Source of the DNA: an uncultured bacterium
GTDB lineage: Bacteria > Krumholzibacteriota > Krumholzibacteriia > LZORAL124-64-63
Direction: 5' to 3'
DNA: 64,000 nt
NCBI GenBank assembly: GCA_903912525.1
Contig: CAIWHK010000018.1
Coordinates: forward strand, 1 to 64,000
The notes under the pieces were generated by a model, which worked only from the letters and a program-made list of their open reading frames with translations, was not told where the DNA came from and made no database searches. The position numbers and the translations under genes were made by a program. Each line of letters begins with the position of its first letter. Position 1 is the stretch's first letter. Positions 26,337 through 33,351 of the stretch are shown here, piece after piece.

Positions 26337-27157
26337 ACAGCCCGCGCAGCCTGACCGTCGCCGCCGTCCAGACTTCCCCCGTGTTCGGGCGGGTCGACGC
26401 CAACCTCGACGCCGCGCTCGCGCTGGTCCCCGGCGGGTGTGATCTCGCCGTCCTGCCCGAACTGTTCGCGTCCGGGTACCAGTTCCGGTCGCGTGCGGAG
26501 GCCGCCTCCTTCGCGGAGGACCTGGCTCCCGACGCAGCCAGCGGCCCCGTCACGACGCGCCTGGCGGCCCATGCGGCCGCCACCGGCACAACGCTCGTCG
26601 CCGGACTGGTCGAACGCGAAGGCGCGAACGAAGGACTGCGCCTGTTCAACAGCGCGCTGCTGGTCCGCCCCGACGGCACGCGTGACGTGTACCGCAAGGT
26701 CCACCTGTTCATGGACGAAAAGCTGCTCTTCGACCCGGGCGACCGGCCGTTCCCGGTCTTCGCGGCCTGCGGCACCAAGGTGGGCCTGATGATCTGCTTC
26801 GACTGGATCTTTCCCGAGGCTGCGCGCTCACTGGCGCTGGGCGGGGCCCGTGTCATCGCGCACCCCTGCAACCTGGTGCTGCCATGGTGCCAGGAGGCGA
26901 TGGTCACGCGGTGCCTGGAGAACGCGGTGCATGCCGTGACGGCGAACCGCGTCGGGTGCGAAAACCGCACCGGGAATGAACTCGCCTTCAGCGGGGGATC
27001 ACAGGTGGTGGCACCGCGCGGCGAGCGCCTCGCGCGCCTGCCTTCGACCGGCACCGGCGCGGCCGTGGCGCGTATCGCGCCCGGTGTACCGGGAACGCAG
27101 GTGACCCTGCGCAATGACCTGCTGGCGGACCGGCGTCCCGGACTCTACCGCGGCTGA
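26333..27157 (+). CDS. carbon-nitrogen hydrolase (nitrilase superfamily)
   Basis: A 274-aa protein with the full catalytic triad: Glu43 (VLPELFASGY), Lys122 (YRKVHLF) and Cys155 (LMICFDWIFPE). Length and motif spacing are those of omega-amidase or N-carbamoyl-type nitrilase members, which hydrolyse amide bonds of small metabolites. The exact substrate cannot be set. It is translationally coupled to the GT4 gene and overlaps the convergent glgC by 13 bp at its 3' end. Confidence 0.9.
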   Translation: MNSPRSLTVAAVQTSPVFGRVDANLDAALALVPGGCDLAVLPELFASGYQFRSRAEAASFAEDLAPDAASGPVTTRLAAHAAATGTTLVAGLVEREGANEGLRLFNSALLVRPDGTRDVYRKVHLFMDEKLLFDPGDRPFPVFAACGTKVGLMICFDWIFPEAARSLALGGARVIAHPCNLVLPWCQEAMVTRCLENAVHAVTANRVGCENRTGNELAFSGGSQVVAPRGERLARLPSTGTGAAVARIAPGVPGTQVTLRNDLLADRRPGLYRG

Positions 27158-28422
27158 ACCGGCGCCGGCTGCTCCTGCTGCAGTCCCGTCAGGTCGGCGT
27201 GCCGCGGGATCACGACCACACCCGAGGGTGAGACCGTGAACCGCGCCGCGTCCCAGGCCGGGTCGCAGCCGAGCCTCATGCCGTCCGGTACGATGACGCC
27301 TTTGTCGACGATGCAGCGCCTGACCTCGGCATGCCGGCCGATGCGCACGTCGTCCATCAGGATGCTCTCGGTGACGCGGCTGTACGAGCCCACGCGACAA
27401 CTGTGGCCGACGATGGAGCGCTCGACGCGCCCGCCCGAGATCATCGATCCGCTGCCGACGATGCTGTCCTCGACGATGCCGGGCAACCGACCGTCGGCGG
27501 CCACGCCGTGCACGGTCTTGCTGGGCGGCAGCGGCGGCTGCCAGGCGCGGAAGTTCCAGTCGGGATCGTAAAGGTCGAACTGCGGCTTGCGCCGCGTCAG
27601 TTCCATGTTCGCATCGTAGTAGCTGTCGAGGGTGCCGATGTCGCGCCAGTACCACGATTTCCCTGTGTCCGGGTCGCGGAACGGCAGCGCGTAGACCTCG
27701 CCGCGCGAAACCATCTCGGGGATGATGTTGCGCCCGAAGTCGTGGCGCGAGTCGACCTGCTTGACGTCGTGGCAGAGTTCGCGCACGAGGCTTTCGGTGT
27801 CGAAGACGTAGACGCCCATGTTGACCAGGCAATGGTCCGGGTCGCCGGGGATCGTCTTCGGGTCGGCCGGCTTCTCCTGGAAGCCGATGACCTTCCAGTT
27901 CTCGTCGACTTCGAGGATACCGAACTGGTCGGCCCCTTCCTTGGGGACGACGGCGGCGCACAGGCTCAACCGGGCGCCCTTCTCCTCGTGGAATTCAAGC
28001 AGCTTCGCGTAGTTCATGCGGTAGACATGGTCACCCGAGAGGATCAGCACGCGTTGCGGGCGGCGCTCCTCGAGCAGGTAGATGTTCTGGTACACCGCGT
28101 CGGCCGTACCCTGGTACCACTTCTGCCCTACGCGGTGCTGCGGCGGGATGCGGTAGAGGAATTCGTCGGCTTCGTAGCTGAAGATGTTCCAGCCGCGCTG
28201 CAGGTGCTGGTCCAGCGAGAACGACTTGTACTGCGTCAGGACGTAGATCTGCCGCAGGCCGCTGTTGACGCAGTTCGAAAGCGTGAAGTCGATGATCCGG
28301 TAGGCCCCGCCGAACGGCACCGCGGGCTTCGAGCGGTCGCGCGTCAGCGGATACAAACGTTCGCCCTGACCGCCGGCCAGGACCAGGCTCAGCGTGCCGC
28401 GAACCAGTTCTCTGTTGCTCAA
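27145..28422 (-). CDS. glgC: glucose-1-phosphate adenylyltransferase
   Basis: A 425-aa protein, probably from a TTG at 28422 with GGAAAG upstream. It has the nucleotidyltransferase motif LVLAGGQGERLYPLTRDRSK, RIIDFTLSNCVNSG, QYKSFSLDQHLQRGW, the substrate-binding FQEKPADPKT and a C-terminal left-handed beta helix (DSIVGSGSMISGGRVERSIV). It makes ADP-glucose for glycogen. It is the last gene in the minus-strand run that contains galT, glgA and a two-component system. Confidence 0.93.
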   Translation of the reverse strand: MSNRELVRGTLSLVLAGGQGERLYPLTRDRSKPAVPFGGAYRIIDFTLSNCVNSGLRQIYVLTQYKSFSLDQHLQRGWNIFSYEADEFLYRIPPQHRVGQKWYQGTADAVYQNIYLLEERRPQRVLILSGDHVYRMNYAKLLEFHEEKGARLSLCAAVVPKEGADQFGILEVDENWKVIGFQEKPADPKTIPGDPDHCLVNMGVYVFDTESLVRELCHDVKQVDSRHDFGRNIIPEMVSRGEVYALPFRDPDTGKSWYWRDIGTLDSYYDANMELTRRKPQFDLYDPDWNFRAWQPPLPPSKTVHGVAADGRLPGIVEDSIVGSGSMISGGRVERSIVGHSCRVGSYSRVTESILMDDVRIGRHAEVRRCIVDKGVIVPDGMRLGCDPAWDAARFTVSPSGVVVIPRHADLTGLQQEQPAPVQPR

Positions 28423-28467
28423 CCCGACTACTTTCCGGCGACGGGCGGCTGCCCGCCGCCATCACGC

Positions 28468-28839
28468 TCAGTTGCGATGGGCCAGTCGCTCGTCCAGGAG
28501 GTTCTTCACCGTGCTCAGCAGTTCAGTCACATCGGACGACTTCGTCACGTAGGCGTCGGCAGCCCACGTCAGGTAGTTGTCGCGGTAGCTGGAGAACGCG
28601 GTGTTGAGGACGACGGGGATGCTGTTGTTGCGCTCAAGAATGCGCTGCAGCGCCTCGATCCCGTCCATCCCCGCCATGCGGATGTCGAGGACGACCAGGT
28701 CGGGGTGCATCGTGTCGACGAACTCGAGTCCCTGCGCGGCATTGCTCGCGGTCATCGTCTCGAAGCCGGCGCGTCGCAGTTCGGTCTCATAGAGGAGCCT
28801 CAGATGGGGCTCGTCATCGACGATCAGGACCTTTGCCAT
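28468..28839 (-). CDS. single-domain response regulator
   Basis: A 123-aa CheY/Spo0F-like receiver from the ATG at 28839 with an AAAGGAGGG site. Acidic pocket Asp8/Asp9 (VLIVDDEPH), phospho-acceptor Asp52 (LVVLDIRM), Thr80 and Lys100 (YVTKSSD) are all present. There is no output domain, so it must act by protein interaction or in a phosphorelay. It lies 106 bp after the histidine kinase and 45 bp before glgC, so it is probably phosphorylated by that kinase. Confidence 0.92.
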   Translation of the reverse strand: MAKVLIVDDEPHLRLLYETELRRAGFETMTASNAAQGLEFVDTMHPDLVVLDIRMAGMDGIEALQRILERNNSIPVVLNTAFSSYRDNYLTWAADAYVTKSSDVTELLSTVKNLLDERLAHRN

Positions 28840-28945
28840 ATTCGCCCTCCTTTGCGAATCGGAAGCTCCAGTCGGGCGCTCCGTCCGCATTGTACCGCCG
28901 GCCACTGCAATCTGCCACTCATTTTGCCGTTCCCGCGGTTCCTGC

Positions 28946-30733
28946 CTAGCTGCGAGGCAAAGGCAGGATGAACCAGAATGTCGCTCCGCCCTCCGGGCGG
29001 TTGGCCGCCCCGGTGACCCCTCCGTGCGCCTTGATGATCTGCGCGCAGATGGTCAATCCCAGACCCGATCCGGTGGGCTTGGTCGAGAAGAACGGCGAGA
29101 ACAGCCGCTTACCGTCCGCATCTGCAAAACCCGGACCGGAATCGAGCACCTCCACCTTCAGGCCGCCTTCCAGGGCACTGGTCCGGACGATCACCTGGCC
29201 GCCGAGGGCCTGCGCCTGCAAGGCGTTCATCAGGTAGTTCTGCAGGACCTGCTGGACCTCGCCAGGATGGCATTCCAGGGCCAGTTCGCCGCAGCCGGGC
29301 TCGATCGTCAACTGCACGCCGGCGCCCTCGAGTTCGCCGCGGAACCGCTCGGCCGTCTCGTTGACCAGGACGTCGATCACGGTCTCCTGCCGGAGCATCT
29401 TGCGCGGGCGGATGAAATCCAGCAGGTCGTGGATGATTTCCTCCATGCGCGCGACCTCCTCGGAGATGATCGCGGCAAAGCGATGATTCGGGTCGGTTTC
29501 GTCCAGGTTCCGCATCAGGGTGCGGGCAAAGCCACCGATCCCGACCAGCGGGTTGCGCAACTCATGGGCCACGATGGCGGAGGTCTCGCCCATCACGCTC
29601 AGCCGCTCCATGCGCAGCAGCGTCTGCTGGTCCTCCTTCTGCTGGTGGTGGGCCCGGCGCAGGTCCACCAGCCTCTTTTCCAGCTCGCGGTACAGGCGGC
29701 TGTTCTCCACCGCGGCCGCGCTCTGGTTGGCGAACATCTGCAGGAACTCCAGGTCAAGGTCGCTGATCTCCTGCCCGCTGATGGCGTTGTCCGCGACGAT
29801 GACCCCGACCGGGCCGCTGCGGATGGTCAGCGGCGCCACCGCGAACTGACCGCCGCCCAGCCAGCCGCGCAGTTCGTCGGCGCCGGGAAAAGTCATGTCG
29901 CCGGTCACGCGCGCGACCCGGCGTTCGTGCATCGCGCGCACCAGGATGTGGTCGGTGCGGTCCAGCGAAACCACCATCTTCCGCACGATCTCGTTGACCG
30001 CGGCATTGGTGTTCTTGATGGACTGGTCGTAGCTGGTCATCATCTCGAACAGGTCGGCGGGGCGGTCGGCCAGGTCGTGCCAGATGCGCGCCGCCTCCTC
30101 GTGGTTGCTCGGGCCGATGGCAAGCTCGCCGCGCAGGATGGTGCCGGCGTCGTCGACCAGCAGCAGGAACGCGCGGTTGAAGCGCAGGCCCTGACCCGCC
30201 GTCACGCAGATCAGGATCGCCTGCTGCAGCTGGTCCAGCGTCAGGTGCGCACCGTAGAGGGCCTCGCTGACCTGGTTGAGCAGCGGCAGCTTGGCCTGGC
30301 GCGCGGCGCGGACCTGGTCGTCGTGTTCGCGCCGGCGGATGTCCTCGACGTGGAAGAAACAGTGGCGGCGGACGTCGTCGTCGGGCGCGGCGCCCGCACC
30401 CGTGCCCGGCAGGGGCTCTGCGTGGAAGCTCGAGCAGACGATCTCCACCGGAATCAACTCGCCGTTCACATTGCGCAACTGCGCCTGGCGACGGAGCCCG
30501 CCCTGGCAGCCGCCCAGCAGCGTGCACTGACCGACCGCGCCCTCGGGCAGGAACCAGTCGGCGCAGGCACTGCCGGTGATCACCTCGCGCGACACGCCTG
30601 CCAGTTCGGCAACGCCGGCGCTGGCCGCCGCCACGTGCCCGTCCACGTCGACCAGGATCATCGGCTGCCGCGAACCGCGGAAGCCCTCGGCGATCAGCGC
30701 CTCGCGCGCCGGATCGAGATTATCGCCCGCCAT
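28946..30733 (-). CDS. soluble PAS-GAF sensor histidine kinase
   Basis: About 595 aa. The ATG at 30733 is preferred over 30739 because the G-run at 30740-30746 then has proper spacing. An N-terminal PAS domain (PMILVDVDGHVAAASAGVAE) is followed by a GAF domain at roughly residues 170-350. The HisKA domain has the phosphorylated His in IVAHELRNPLVGIGGFA. The HATPase domain has NYLMNALQAQ (N box), DSGPGF (G1) and GSGLGLTI (G2). No membrane helix is seen, so it senses a cytosolic signal. Its start overlaps the end of glgA, which suggests co-translation with glycogen synthase. Confidence 0.92.
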   Translation of the reverse strand: MAGDNLDPAREALIAEGFRGSRQPMILVDVDGHVAAASAGVAELAGVSREVITGSACADWFLPEGAVGQCTLLGGCQGGLRRQAQLRNVNGELIPVEIVCSSFHAEPLPGTGAGAAPDDDVRRHCFFHVEDIRRREHDDQVRAARQAKLPLLNQVSEALYGAHLTLDQLQQAILICVTAGQGLRFNRAFLLLVDDAGTILRGELAIGPSNHEEAARIWHDLADRPADLFEMMTSYDQSIKNTNAAVNEIVRKMVVSLDRTDHILVRAMHERRVARVTGDMTFPGADELRGWLGGGQFAVAPLTIRSGPVGVIVADNAISGQEISDLDLEFLQMFANQSAAAVENSRLYRELEKRLVDLRRAHHQQKEDQQTLLRMERLSVMGETSAIVAHELRNPLVGIGGFARTLMRNLDETDPNHRFAAIISEEVARMEEIIHDLLDFIRPRKMLRQETVIDVLVNETAERFRGELEGAGVQLTIEPGCGELALECHPGEVQQVLQNYLMNALQAQALGGQVIVRTSALEGGLKVEVLDSGPGFADADGKRLFSPFFSTKPTGSGLGLTICAQIIKAHGGVTGAANRPEGGATFWFILPLPRS

Positions 30734-32198
30734 CGTCATCCCCCCCGGCGACCCCTGTCGCCGCCATGTAGAGCGCCTCATAGCCGGCCGCCGCGCGGTC
30801 CCAGTCGAACACGCGCCGCAGGCCGCGCGCCTGCAGGTCGCCCCACGCCTCTCGGTCTTCCCACAGGTGGCCGGCGCGCCGCAGCGCCGCCAGCAGCGCG
30901 TCAGGGCGCGCGTCGTCGAACACGAATCCGTCGCCGTCGGGCTCGGCCGCATCGATGACGGTGTCGGCCAGGCCGCCGGTCCGCCGGACCACCGGCGGCG
31001 CGCCGTAGCGCAGGGCGTACATCTGGCCCAGGCCGCAGGGCTCGAACACGCTCGGCATCAGGAAGGTGTCGCACCCCGCGTAGATGCGTCGCGCCAGAGC
31101 ATCGTCAAAGCCGCGCACGAACGCGACGCAGCCCGGCAGCGCGGCAGCGACTGCCGCGGCCTGCTGTTCCAGCGCGGCGTCGCCGGTGCCCAGCAGCGCG
31201 AATCCGAAGCCGTCGCCGGCCAGCCTCTCCATGAGCGGCAGGGCCAGGTCGAGTCCCTTCTGCGCCACCAGGCGGCCCACGAACCCGCACAACAGGCGGT
31301 CGGCCGGCAGGTCCAGCCCCAGTTCGCTGCGCAGGGCGACGCGGCAGGCCTCACGGCCCCCGGGGGCAGCAGCACTGAAGGCGGCGGGCAGGGCGCGATC
31401 GGAGCGCGGATTCCAGGCCTCGTAGTCCGCACCGTTGAGGATCCCCGAGTAGGCGGCGCCCCGGCCCGCGAGGACCCCCTCGAGCCCGCAGCCGAACGCC
31501 GGGTCGGTGATCGTCTCGCGCGCATAGGTCGGGCTGACCGTGTTCACTCGATCGGCCGCCAGGATGCCGGCCTTCATCAGGTTCACGTTGCCGTGGAACT
31601 CGAGCAGGCCCGGGAAGGCGGCCAGCGGGACCGGCAGCCCCAGGTCCGCGACCGCGCCGGGGGCGTGGATCTCCTGGTGCGCAAGGTTGTGAATGGTCAG
31701 CACGGTACCGGCCGGTCCCGGCAGGGCGGGCCCGTCGAACCACTGCCGGCGGTAGACCGGGGCCAGGGCCGCCTGCGCGTCGTGCGCATGGACGATGTCG
31801 ACCGGCCAGTCCAGGCAACCCGGCAGCAGAAGCGCCGCCTGCGCGAGCAGCCCGGCGCGCACGAGTGGCGATGACGAGGCCTGGCCCCCGTACGCGTAGA
31901 CGCCGCCGCCGAATACCGACGGTTCATCGACCAGGTAGACGCGCGGACCGCGGCCCGGCCTTGCGCGCTCGAGCAGTCGCACGGCCAGGAAACGCTGCCC
32001 CACGCGGATCGGGATCGGCGGACCGGGGCGGCGGCGGAAACCGGCGTCCGCGGCCGCAGCGGCATCGTAGCAGGGGAGCACGACGCGCACATCGTGCCCC
32101 CGCCGCGCCAGGGCGCCGGCCAGCCCCGCCACGGCGTCGGCCAGCCCGCCGACCTTGGCCAGCGGCGCGTACTCGGCTGCCACCATCAGGATGTTCAT
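30720..32198 (-). CDS. glgA: glycogen synthase
   Basis: A 492-aa GT5 enzyme starting MNILMVAAEYAPLAKVGGLA; the usual KTGGL reads KVGGL. Other motifs are LTIHNLAHQ, TVSPTYA, GILNGADYEAWNPRSD, LCGFVGRLVAQKGLDL and PSVFEPCGLGQMYALRYGA. It extends alpha-1,4-glucan from ADP-glucose. Its ATG overlaps the galT stop (ATGA), and its 3' end overlaps the histidine kinase start. The second half of the pathway, glgC, lies in the same run. Confidence 0.93.
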   Translation of the reverse strand: MNILMVAAEYAPLAKVGGLADAVAGLAGALARRGHDVRVVLPCYDAAAAADAGFRRRPGPPIPIRVGQRFLAVRLLERARPGRGPRVYLVDEPSVFGGGVYAYGGQASSSPLVRAGLLAQAALLLPGCLDWPVDIVHAHDAQAALAPVYRRQWFDGPALPGPAGTVLTIHNLAHQEIHAPGAVADLGLPVPLAAFPGLLEFHGNVNLMKAGILAADRVNTVSPTYARETITDPAFGCGLEGVLAGRGAAYSGILNGADYEAWNPRSDRALPAAFSAAAPGGREACRVALRSELGLDLPADRLLCGFVGRLVAQKGLDLALPLMERLAGDGFGFALLGTGDAALEQQAAAVAAALPGCVAFVRGFDDALARRIYAGCDTFLMPSVFEPCGLGQMYALRYGAPPVVRRTGGLADTVIDAAEPDGDGFVFDDARPDALLAALRRAGHLWEDREAWGDLQARGLRRVFDWDRAAAGYEALYMAATGVAGGDDDGGR

Positions 32199-33262
32199 GC
32201 TCCCCACTCCCCTGCGGCCCGCAGGTGCGCTGCCGCCGCCTCCGGTTCGACCGCGTTGATCGCATACCCCGTGCCCGCCTCGAAGCCGGCCAACCGGCTC
32301 AGGCGCGGCAGGATCTCGATGTGCCCGTGCCACTGGTCGACGGCCCGGTCGCCCAGGGCGTCCAGCGCCGGGTCGGCAAACATCCCATCGCTGCCGCGGC
32401 GCGGCGCCAGGTGGAAGACGAGGTTGAGCGAAAGGTCGCCATGGCGCCGCTGGAGCGCACGCAGGATCGTCCCGAGCATCCCGGCAAGCGACGCCGCGGC
32501 GGCAGGCTCAAGGTCCAGCGGCGAGGACCCGTGCCGCACGGGCACCAGCAGCACTTCCCACGGGAAACGACTGGCCCACGGCGTGACGGCGGTCCAGTGC
32601 TCATCGGCGCGCACCAGGCGCGCGCCCTCGCGCCGCTCGCGGTCCGCCAGGTCGCACAGCAGGCAACCGCCGCGGTCCCGGCGCCAGGCATCCAGGCGGG
32701 CCGACTTCTCGACAGTCAGCAACGGGATGCAGGGCGTACCGATGATCTGCAGGTGCGGGTGGGTAAGCGTTGCGCCCGCCTCGGGCCCGTGGTTGCAGAA
32801 AGGGGCGATGAACCGCACGCCGGGCTCAGCGGCGAACGATGCCACTCTTTGCCGCACGACGTCCAGTAGCGACACAAGCTCCGCAGCCGACAGGGTGGCC
32901 AGGCTGGCGTCGTGGTCCGGCGAATAGACGACCACCTCGTGCCGACCGTGGCCGGGGCTGCCGGCCAGCAGGTCGTCGGACGTCGCCGCCGGCGCGGCGC
33001 CCGCCGGGGCAGCGGTCACCGCCGGGTACATGTTGGGGAAGGCCCGCAGTCGCCAACCGGGGCTGTTCGGCGCAGCGCCCGCGGACCGCCCCAGCGCGAG
33101 CACCTCGGGGGTGGTATCACCCTCGTGCCCCGGGCAGAACGGGCAACGCCCCTCGGCCGCGCCGCCGCGCTGCAGCAGGGGAAATTCGTTGGGACGTCCC
33201 CCGCGGCCGGTGGCGATGATCACCCAACGGCCGGTCAGGGGGTCCTGGCGCAGCATCGACAC
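32195..33262 (-). CDS. galT: galactose-1-phosphate uridylyltransferase family protein
   Basis: A 355-aa HIT-superfamily protein, probably from a GTG at 33262 (GGAAGGA upstream), with an ATG at 33256 as alternative. It has a zinc-type CPFCPGHEGD, a second CxxC (CLLCD), and the nucleotidyl-acceptor THPHLQIIG, where GalT has HPHGQ. The C-terminal lobe has DQWHGHIEILPRL. GalT converts UDP-glucose plus galactose-1-phosphate to UDP-galactose; an ADP-glucose phosphorylase activity is possible given the glg neighbours. Confidence 0.85.
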   Translation of the reverse strand: MSMLRQDPLTGRWVIIATGRGGRPNEFPLLQRGGAAEGRCPFCPGHEGDTTPEVLALGRSAGAAPNSPGWRLRAFPNMYPAVTAAPAGAAPAATSDDLLAGSPGHGRHEVVVYSPDHDASLATLSAAELVSLLDVVRQRVASFAAEPGVRFIAPFCNHGPEAGATLTHPHLQIIGTPCIPLLTVEKSARLDAWRRDRGGCLLCDLADRERREGARLVRADEHWTAVTPWASRFPWEVLLVPVRHGSSPLDLEPAAAASLAGMLGTILRALQRRHGDLSLNLVFHLAPRRGSDGMFADPALDALGDRAVDQWHGHIEILPRLSRLAGFEAGTGYAINAVEPEAAAAHLRAAGEWGA

Positions 33263-33322: not shown

Positions 33323-33351
33323 ATCCTACAACGAATCGGAGATTGAACCAA
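33323..33351 (-). promoter_or_regulatory. probable promoter of galT-glgA-kinase run
   Basis: On the minus strand TTGGTT (33351-33346), a 17-bp spacer and TAGGAT (33328-33323), about 60 bp upstream of the galT start. Confidence 0.45.

Follow-up and report, generated by a model that had tools for sequence, protein, structure and literature searches.

Gene content of the locus

We examined a window of 64,000 nucleotides from a Krumholzibacteriota assembly (GenBank GCA_903912525.1, contig CAIWHK010000018.1, positions 1 to 64,000; source genome G000), in which a soluble histidine kinase (HK) and a single-domain response regulator, or receiver (RR), are encoded among genes of glycogen synthesis. 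Reading of the open reading frames together with Pfam and NCBIfam matches gave the gene order galT-glgA-HK-RR-glgC, with all five genes on the minus strand. These genes and two promoter-like sites are listed below in window coordinates.

33323 to 33351, minus strand: possible main promoter before galT, TTGGTT-17 nt-TAGGAT, read from the sequence
32195 to 33262, minus strand: galT-like galactose-1-phosphate uridylyltransferase gene, GTG start, Pfam GalP_UDP_transf, first gene of the block
30720 to 32198, minus strand: glgA, ADP-glucose glycogen synthase, Pfam Glyco_transf_5, TIGR02095 with 450 bits (cut-off 328)
28946 to 30733, minus strand: HK, soluble histidine kinase of 595 aa, Pfam GAF, HisKA and HATPase_c, with a marginal PAS_4
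28889 to 28918, minus strand: internal sigma-70-like site, GTGGCA-18 nt-TACAAT, 49 nt ahead of the RR start, found in a preset scan
28468 to 28839, minus strand: RR, single-domain receiver of 123 aa and of the TrrA type, Pfam Response_reg
27145 to 28422, minus strand: glgC, glucose-1-phosphate adenylyltransferase, TTG start, Pfam NTP_transferase, TIGR02091 with 467 bits (cut-off 425)

The presence of an ADP-glucose type glgA and a glgC on one strand with short gaps identifies the block as a glycogen operon, as judged from NCBIfam matches and gene positions. More specifically, galT and glgA overlap by 4 nt, while the spacing is 106 nt between HK and RR and 45 nt between RR and glgC. The galT-like product falls below its NCBIfam cut-off (TIGR00209, 82.1 vs 102.1 bits). 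A first-pass annotation of this DNA had described a kinase that overlaps the end of glgA and a receiver situated between this kinase and glgC; coordinates and Pfam matches bear this out, with the PAS match being marginal.

Conservation within the family

The survey sample comprised 38 genomes of the family, with completeness of 65-100%. RR was present in 28 of these, and in all 28 it is directly followed by glgC on the same contig and strand, a degree of conservation that excludes a chance association of the two genes. HK was present in 30 of the 38 genomes and is preceded by glgA in 28, while in the remaining two (G003 and G030) the contigs are cut inside HK. The block is spread over two contigs in G034 and G077, and in G002 and G029 the HK match reaches the contig end and RR was not found. 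Six genomes (G005, G008, G016, G018, G025 and G031) carry glgA followed by glgC, without HK or RR. None of glgA, HK, RR and glgC was found in G013 and G022 at the thresholds used; the lack of HK and RR in the two genomes that also lack glgA and glgC speaks for a link of the pair to the glycogen genes.

The galT gene lies upstream of glgA in 15/20 family loci, with two of the five misses due to contig ends. The gene order is kept across 10 genera, between which HK identity is as low as 52%. Most of the family has HK and RR placed within the glycogen genes, and both the embedding described by the first-pass annotation and the conserved order that it had offered as a check proved stable. In the GlgC tree, the six genomes without HK and RR form one clade (support 98/93), so that a single gain or a single loss explains the pattern; this tree does not tell gain from loss.

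The receiver

RR is a single-domain response regulator. The residues D8, D9, D52, T80 and K100, and likewise Y97, are present in 24/24 sequences, and Pfam finds a bare Response_reg without any further domain, in agreement with the earlier description of a receiver lacking a DNA-binding domain. The best solved relatives of the RR profile are 3a0r_B and 3a0u (TrrA), with E about 3e-27. Identity to TrrA is 41-42% across the receiver, and the structure model of RR aligns to 3a0u with a TM-score of 0.89. There are 18 family-fixed positions, of which 13 fall in helix 1, helix 2 and the loop following D52.

In the receiver tree, the family RRs form a group with support 100/100, whose stem is long at 2.97 changes per column. 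A divergent second receiver of genome G024 sits inside this group on a long, unsure branch. RR shares its receiver fold without output domain with receivers of the Spo0F/CheY type. Spo0F serves in the sporulation relay and CheY in chemotaxis, and neither is known to control a storage enzyme.

The histidine kinase

HK consists of a GAF domain (about residues 166-345), a HisKA domain with H390 in the box HELRNP, and a HATPase_c domain. The N-terminal PAS_4 match (residues 20-73) barely passes the Pfam cut-off (23.9 vs 23.1 bits). No membrane segment was detected by hydropathy (largest 19-residue mean 1.28), which agrees with the cytosolic signal suggested in the first-pass annotation. In 22 HK sequences, H390 is invariant, and so are the key residues of what we take to be the N, G1, F and G2 boxes of HATPase_c, as in an orthodox kinase of the HisKA type. 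The HELRNP box would presumably permit phosphatase action as well. Across 22 relatives, of which one is shortened and another contains masked bases, invariant positions amount to 1/131 in the N-terminal PAS part, 52/180 in GAF and 46/71 in the HisKA region; the better conservation of GAF makes it the better sensor candidate. The best solved relative of the HK profile is ThkA (3a0r_A, E 1e-57). The model of the whole HK has a low pTM of 0.41, and its fold matches are informative for the kinase core alone.

Among solved chains, both proteins are thus closest to ThkA and TrrA, and their genes are adjacent, which places them with pairs of the ThkA-TrrA type. HK and RR are probably cognate partners, because their best solved relatives were crystallised together, as the two chains of 3A0R.

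Gene junctions and promoter-like sites

At the junction of glgA and HK, a start at ATG 30733 gives an overlap of 14 nt with the end of glgA, and a start at ATG 30739 one of 20 nt. In a survey of this junction that considered ATG starts only, an overlapping HK ATG occurred in 9/24 family rows, from five genera, and the other rows showed a gap, no ATG in range or, in one case, a fused frame. In most rows HK lies close behind glgA. The fused frame belongs to G020 (L022:1-3162, plus strand, contig G020:C28; the same record as L039), where glgA and HK are joined in a single open frame; the part retrieved spans 1,054 codons, with a few codons from the 5' end of glgA falling outside L022. This is a possible GlgA-kinase fusion. 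It was seen in one genome only, on a contig with a low coverage of 3.06 and some masked bases, and we rejected it as general evidence for these reasons.

The preset sigma-70 scan of 6.8 kb returned one minus-strand site, the one ahead of RR, and two sites on both strands together, with 0.3 expected. Furthermore, the pattern TGGCn-N17-19-TAnnnT was found in 14/24 HK-RR gaps, covering 8/10 genera, with 0.24 expected by shuffling; it was chosen after reading the 24 gaps, and the preset scan is independent of it. Its count was 0 in four control region sets of 22-24 genomes each, zeros that say little because only 0.06-0.33 were expected. Upstream of the block, TTGnnn-N16-19-TAnnnT occurs within 150 nt before galT in 5/8 family loci, a count made without a shuffled control.

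The promoter-like sites preceding RR make a separate RR-glgC transcript probable, and we hold with moderate confidence that these two genes have a promoter of their own besides a long transcript from before galT. The first-pass annotation had emphasized translational coupling of HK to glgA. Of this, the proximity stands, with HK usually close behind glgA; co-translation as the key feature was rejected, since the overlapping ATG is found in 9/24 rows only. With the glgA-HK overlap in 9/24 rows versus the promoter-like site in 14/24 gaps, RR is grouped with glgC and not with glgA.

Evolutionary rates and distances

Of the five products, RR has changed most slowly. Comparisons between genera gave a mean identity of 80% for RR, 73% for GlgC, 61% for GlgA and 58% for HK over 125 pairs from 17 genomes; GalT, compared in 84 pairs from 14 genomes, reached 48%. 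The higher conservation of RR relative to the surrounding enzymes suggests that it has several binding partners. In a partial distance test with 19 genomes, RR-GlgC and RR-HK both gave 0.57 once GlgA was removed, and RR-GlgA gave a partial r of -0.01 once HK was removed. The test weakly favors HK and GlgC over GlgA as partners of RR.

Relatives outside the family

ThkA-TrrA of Thermotoga maritima (TM1359-TM1360, PDB 3A0R) resembles the pair described here in combining a kinase with a single-domain receiver, the two having been crystallised together. A Thermotogaceae contig (L105) likewise has adjacent HK and RR genes, with an RR 45% identical. In contrast to HK, the kinases of the Thermotoga group are longer, with 943 aa in L084 and at least 877 aa in L105, and no glg gene was found at these two loci, whereas here the pair lies within a glycogen operon. 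To our knowledge, no role has been assigned to the TrrA-type pair where it was crystallised.

Four Zixibacteria contigs (L043, L044, L045 and L056) carry adjacent homologues in the same order, with identities of 29-39% for HK and 37-41% for RR, but no glgA or glgC in the 3.5 to 21 kb examined of each. In L043 the pair lies in a motility cluster, where its neighbors encode CsrA, PilZ, a sigma-70-family factor and an MCP-like protein (Pfam), and L044 shares these neighbors. In the sister family f3, the nearest receiver mostly adjoins a gene for an Arf/MglA-like GTPase and the nearest kinase mostly adjoins methylmalonyl-CoA mutase genes (Pfam on one locus in each case). Homologues of HK from sister families, at about 30% identity, were rejected as orthologues of the same function, as they adjoin genes for methylmalonyl-CoA mutase and MeaB.

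An occurrence of the pair away from glg genes in relatives had been named beforehand as the observation that would speak against a link to glycogen. The answer differs with the distance of the relatives: inside the family, a close RR stands beside glgC in 28/28 genomes, the extra copy in G024 aside, while outside it the Zixibacteria pairs and the RR and HK of sister families lie away from glg genes in the stretches examined. The latter suggests that HK-RR is a general signaling module that was recruited and is not specific to glycogen by origin. In the excerpts of open-licence literature covered (including PMC3591346, PMC6599016 and PMC10936416), we found no description of a kinase-receiver pair in a glg operon.

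A proposed role for the pair

In bacteria, sugar phosphates and nucleotides regulate GlgC, and the glg genes are under the control of transcription and CsrA. For the family studied here, we tentatively propose a further route, to which we give somewhat less than an even chance as a whole. A cognate pair of a soluble GAF-type HK and a TrrA-type RR would have been built into the glycogen operon early in the family, or lost in one clade. HK would sense a signal in the cytosol, for which its conserved GAF domain is the likeliest site, and would phosphorylate RR at D52. RR, probably made together with GlgC from the internal promoter, would bind its target directly. The likeliest target is GlgC, which commits glucose-1-phosphate to storage, and the contact would raise or lower the supply of ADP-glucose. 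The genes, their order, the intact catalytic residues and their conservation and phyletic pattern were observed directly, while the phosphotransfer, the signal and GlgC as the target are predicted from sequence. The suggestion of the first-pass annotation that the output of the receiver may be an enzyme is plausible; of the two enzymes, GlgC is favored over GlgA.

In a more specific form of the proposal, which we consider rather less likely than not, ADP-glucose pyrophosphorylase itself would be controlled by a dedicated two-component system, with phosphorylated RR binding GlgC as an allosteric subunit. The kinase would then set the flow into glycogen on a time scale of seconds with no need for transcription, either replacing metabolite allostery or adding to it. 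If the proposal is true, the retention of HK and RR between glgA and glgC over 10 genera would represent a simple two-component output on a central metabolic enzyme. The cell may then adjust its carbon store through direct signaling between proteins, bypassing DNA, and a TrrA-type pair is placed in a clear metabolic context.

Several observations weigh against this proposal. The contrast within the family amounts to one evolutionary event, as the six genomes without the pair form one clade, and that clade differs in other respects: a further conserved gene precedes glgA in 4/4 of its loci viewed with flanks (L242-L245, out of six; in G005, L243, the sole locus tested, it is GH57 by Pfam), and a match to an MglA-like GTPase is found in 0/6 of its genomes. 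Outside the family, homologues show no tie to glycogen genes in the stretches examined, and the second receiver of G024, about 51% identical and on another contig (G024:C6:20312-20662, L241), has no glg gene within the 9.5 kb examined around it. Helix 5 of RR is variable (2/18 invariant), so that the usual output face is conserved in part only. Among the ten receivers of sister family f3, which do not adjoin glg genes, identity is likewise 73%, and high conservation of RR is therefore no proof by itself of an enzyme target. The promoter pattern matched in 1/3 further genomes. In the distance test, which was made without a species tree from unlinked genes as control, RR-GlgC drops to a partial r of 0.32 (p 0.033) once HK is removed, and other pairs stay positive (GlgC-HK 0.58, GlgC-GlgA 0.36 and HK-GlgA 0.34).

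Four other explanations were weighed against the proposal. RR might act on a target outside glycogen metabolism, such as cell polarity or motility, with co-expression from the glg operon tying its level to storage and nothing more. We regard this as rather unlikely. Related receivers adjoin the Arf/MglA-like GTPase gene in sister families, the Zixibacteria pair lies among sigma-factor, PilZ and CsrA genes, and within the family MglA-like GTPase matches occur in 29/30 genomes with HK and in 0/8 without it. The GTPase pattern, however, is one clade contrast together with genus g11. The GTPase gene of the family lies elsewhere, beside a roadblock-like gene and recR (by eye in three loci, e.g. L294, L295 and L301), and the 1.5 kb flanks of 29 such loci contained no close relative of RR, the sole receiver there being a generic one, 29% identical, in L290; a close RR copy stands instead beside glgC throughout. 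A link between RR and MglA was not adopted on these grounds. An unlikely course of events is also a phosphorelay or branched pathway, in which RR, as an intermediate resembling Spo0F, would give phosphate to, or compete for it with, a DNA-binding regulator of glg transcription or storage. Among the solved relatives of RR, Spo0F ranks next to TrrA, RR has no output domain, and these genomes contain many receivers and kinases; yet there is no HPt or DNA-binding protein among the five genes, and such a relay predicts neither the promoter-like site before RR-glgC nor the match of RR and GlgC distances.

Action of RR on GlgA, as implied by the coupling argument, seems improbable to us. It would account for the overlap of HK with glgA in this genus, the closeness of the two genes in most rows and the single open frame of G020, but the overlap is limited to 9/24 rows, the fused frame to one low-coverage contig, and RR distances do not track GlgA once HK is removed. 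That HK and RR are passengers with no functional link to glycogen is the explanation we credit least and consider highly improbable: homologues do occur elsewhere without glg neighbors in the stretches examined, but the order has been kept over 10 genera despite the divergence of HK, and RR is more conserved than the enzymes. Taken against these alternatives, contact of RR with GlgC is the reading we retain, with the reservation expressed above.

Other features of the glycogen genes

The glgA and glgC genes belong to the standard families, as in classical bacterial glg operons. Unlike these, the operon here includes a two-component pair, and a whole-genome search of the source genome found no GlgB above the TIGR01515 cut-off. 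GH57 matches in this genome are weak (at most 38 bits, above the Pfam cut-off), and a phosphorylase match is present. The glucose polymer of the source organism may be unbranched, or branched via another enzyme.

The unusual TTG start of glgC at 28422 is conserved over several genera, TTG standing at the aligned first codon in 17/24 family rows. In family f5, a second glgA match adjoins glgC, with glgC first (L250, G042:C17:92446-95122, minus strand). Downstream of the block in the window lies a gene on the plus strand that looks nitrilase-like. It is tail to tail with glgC, and its end falls within the 3' end of glgC, an overlap of 13 nt (27145-27157).

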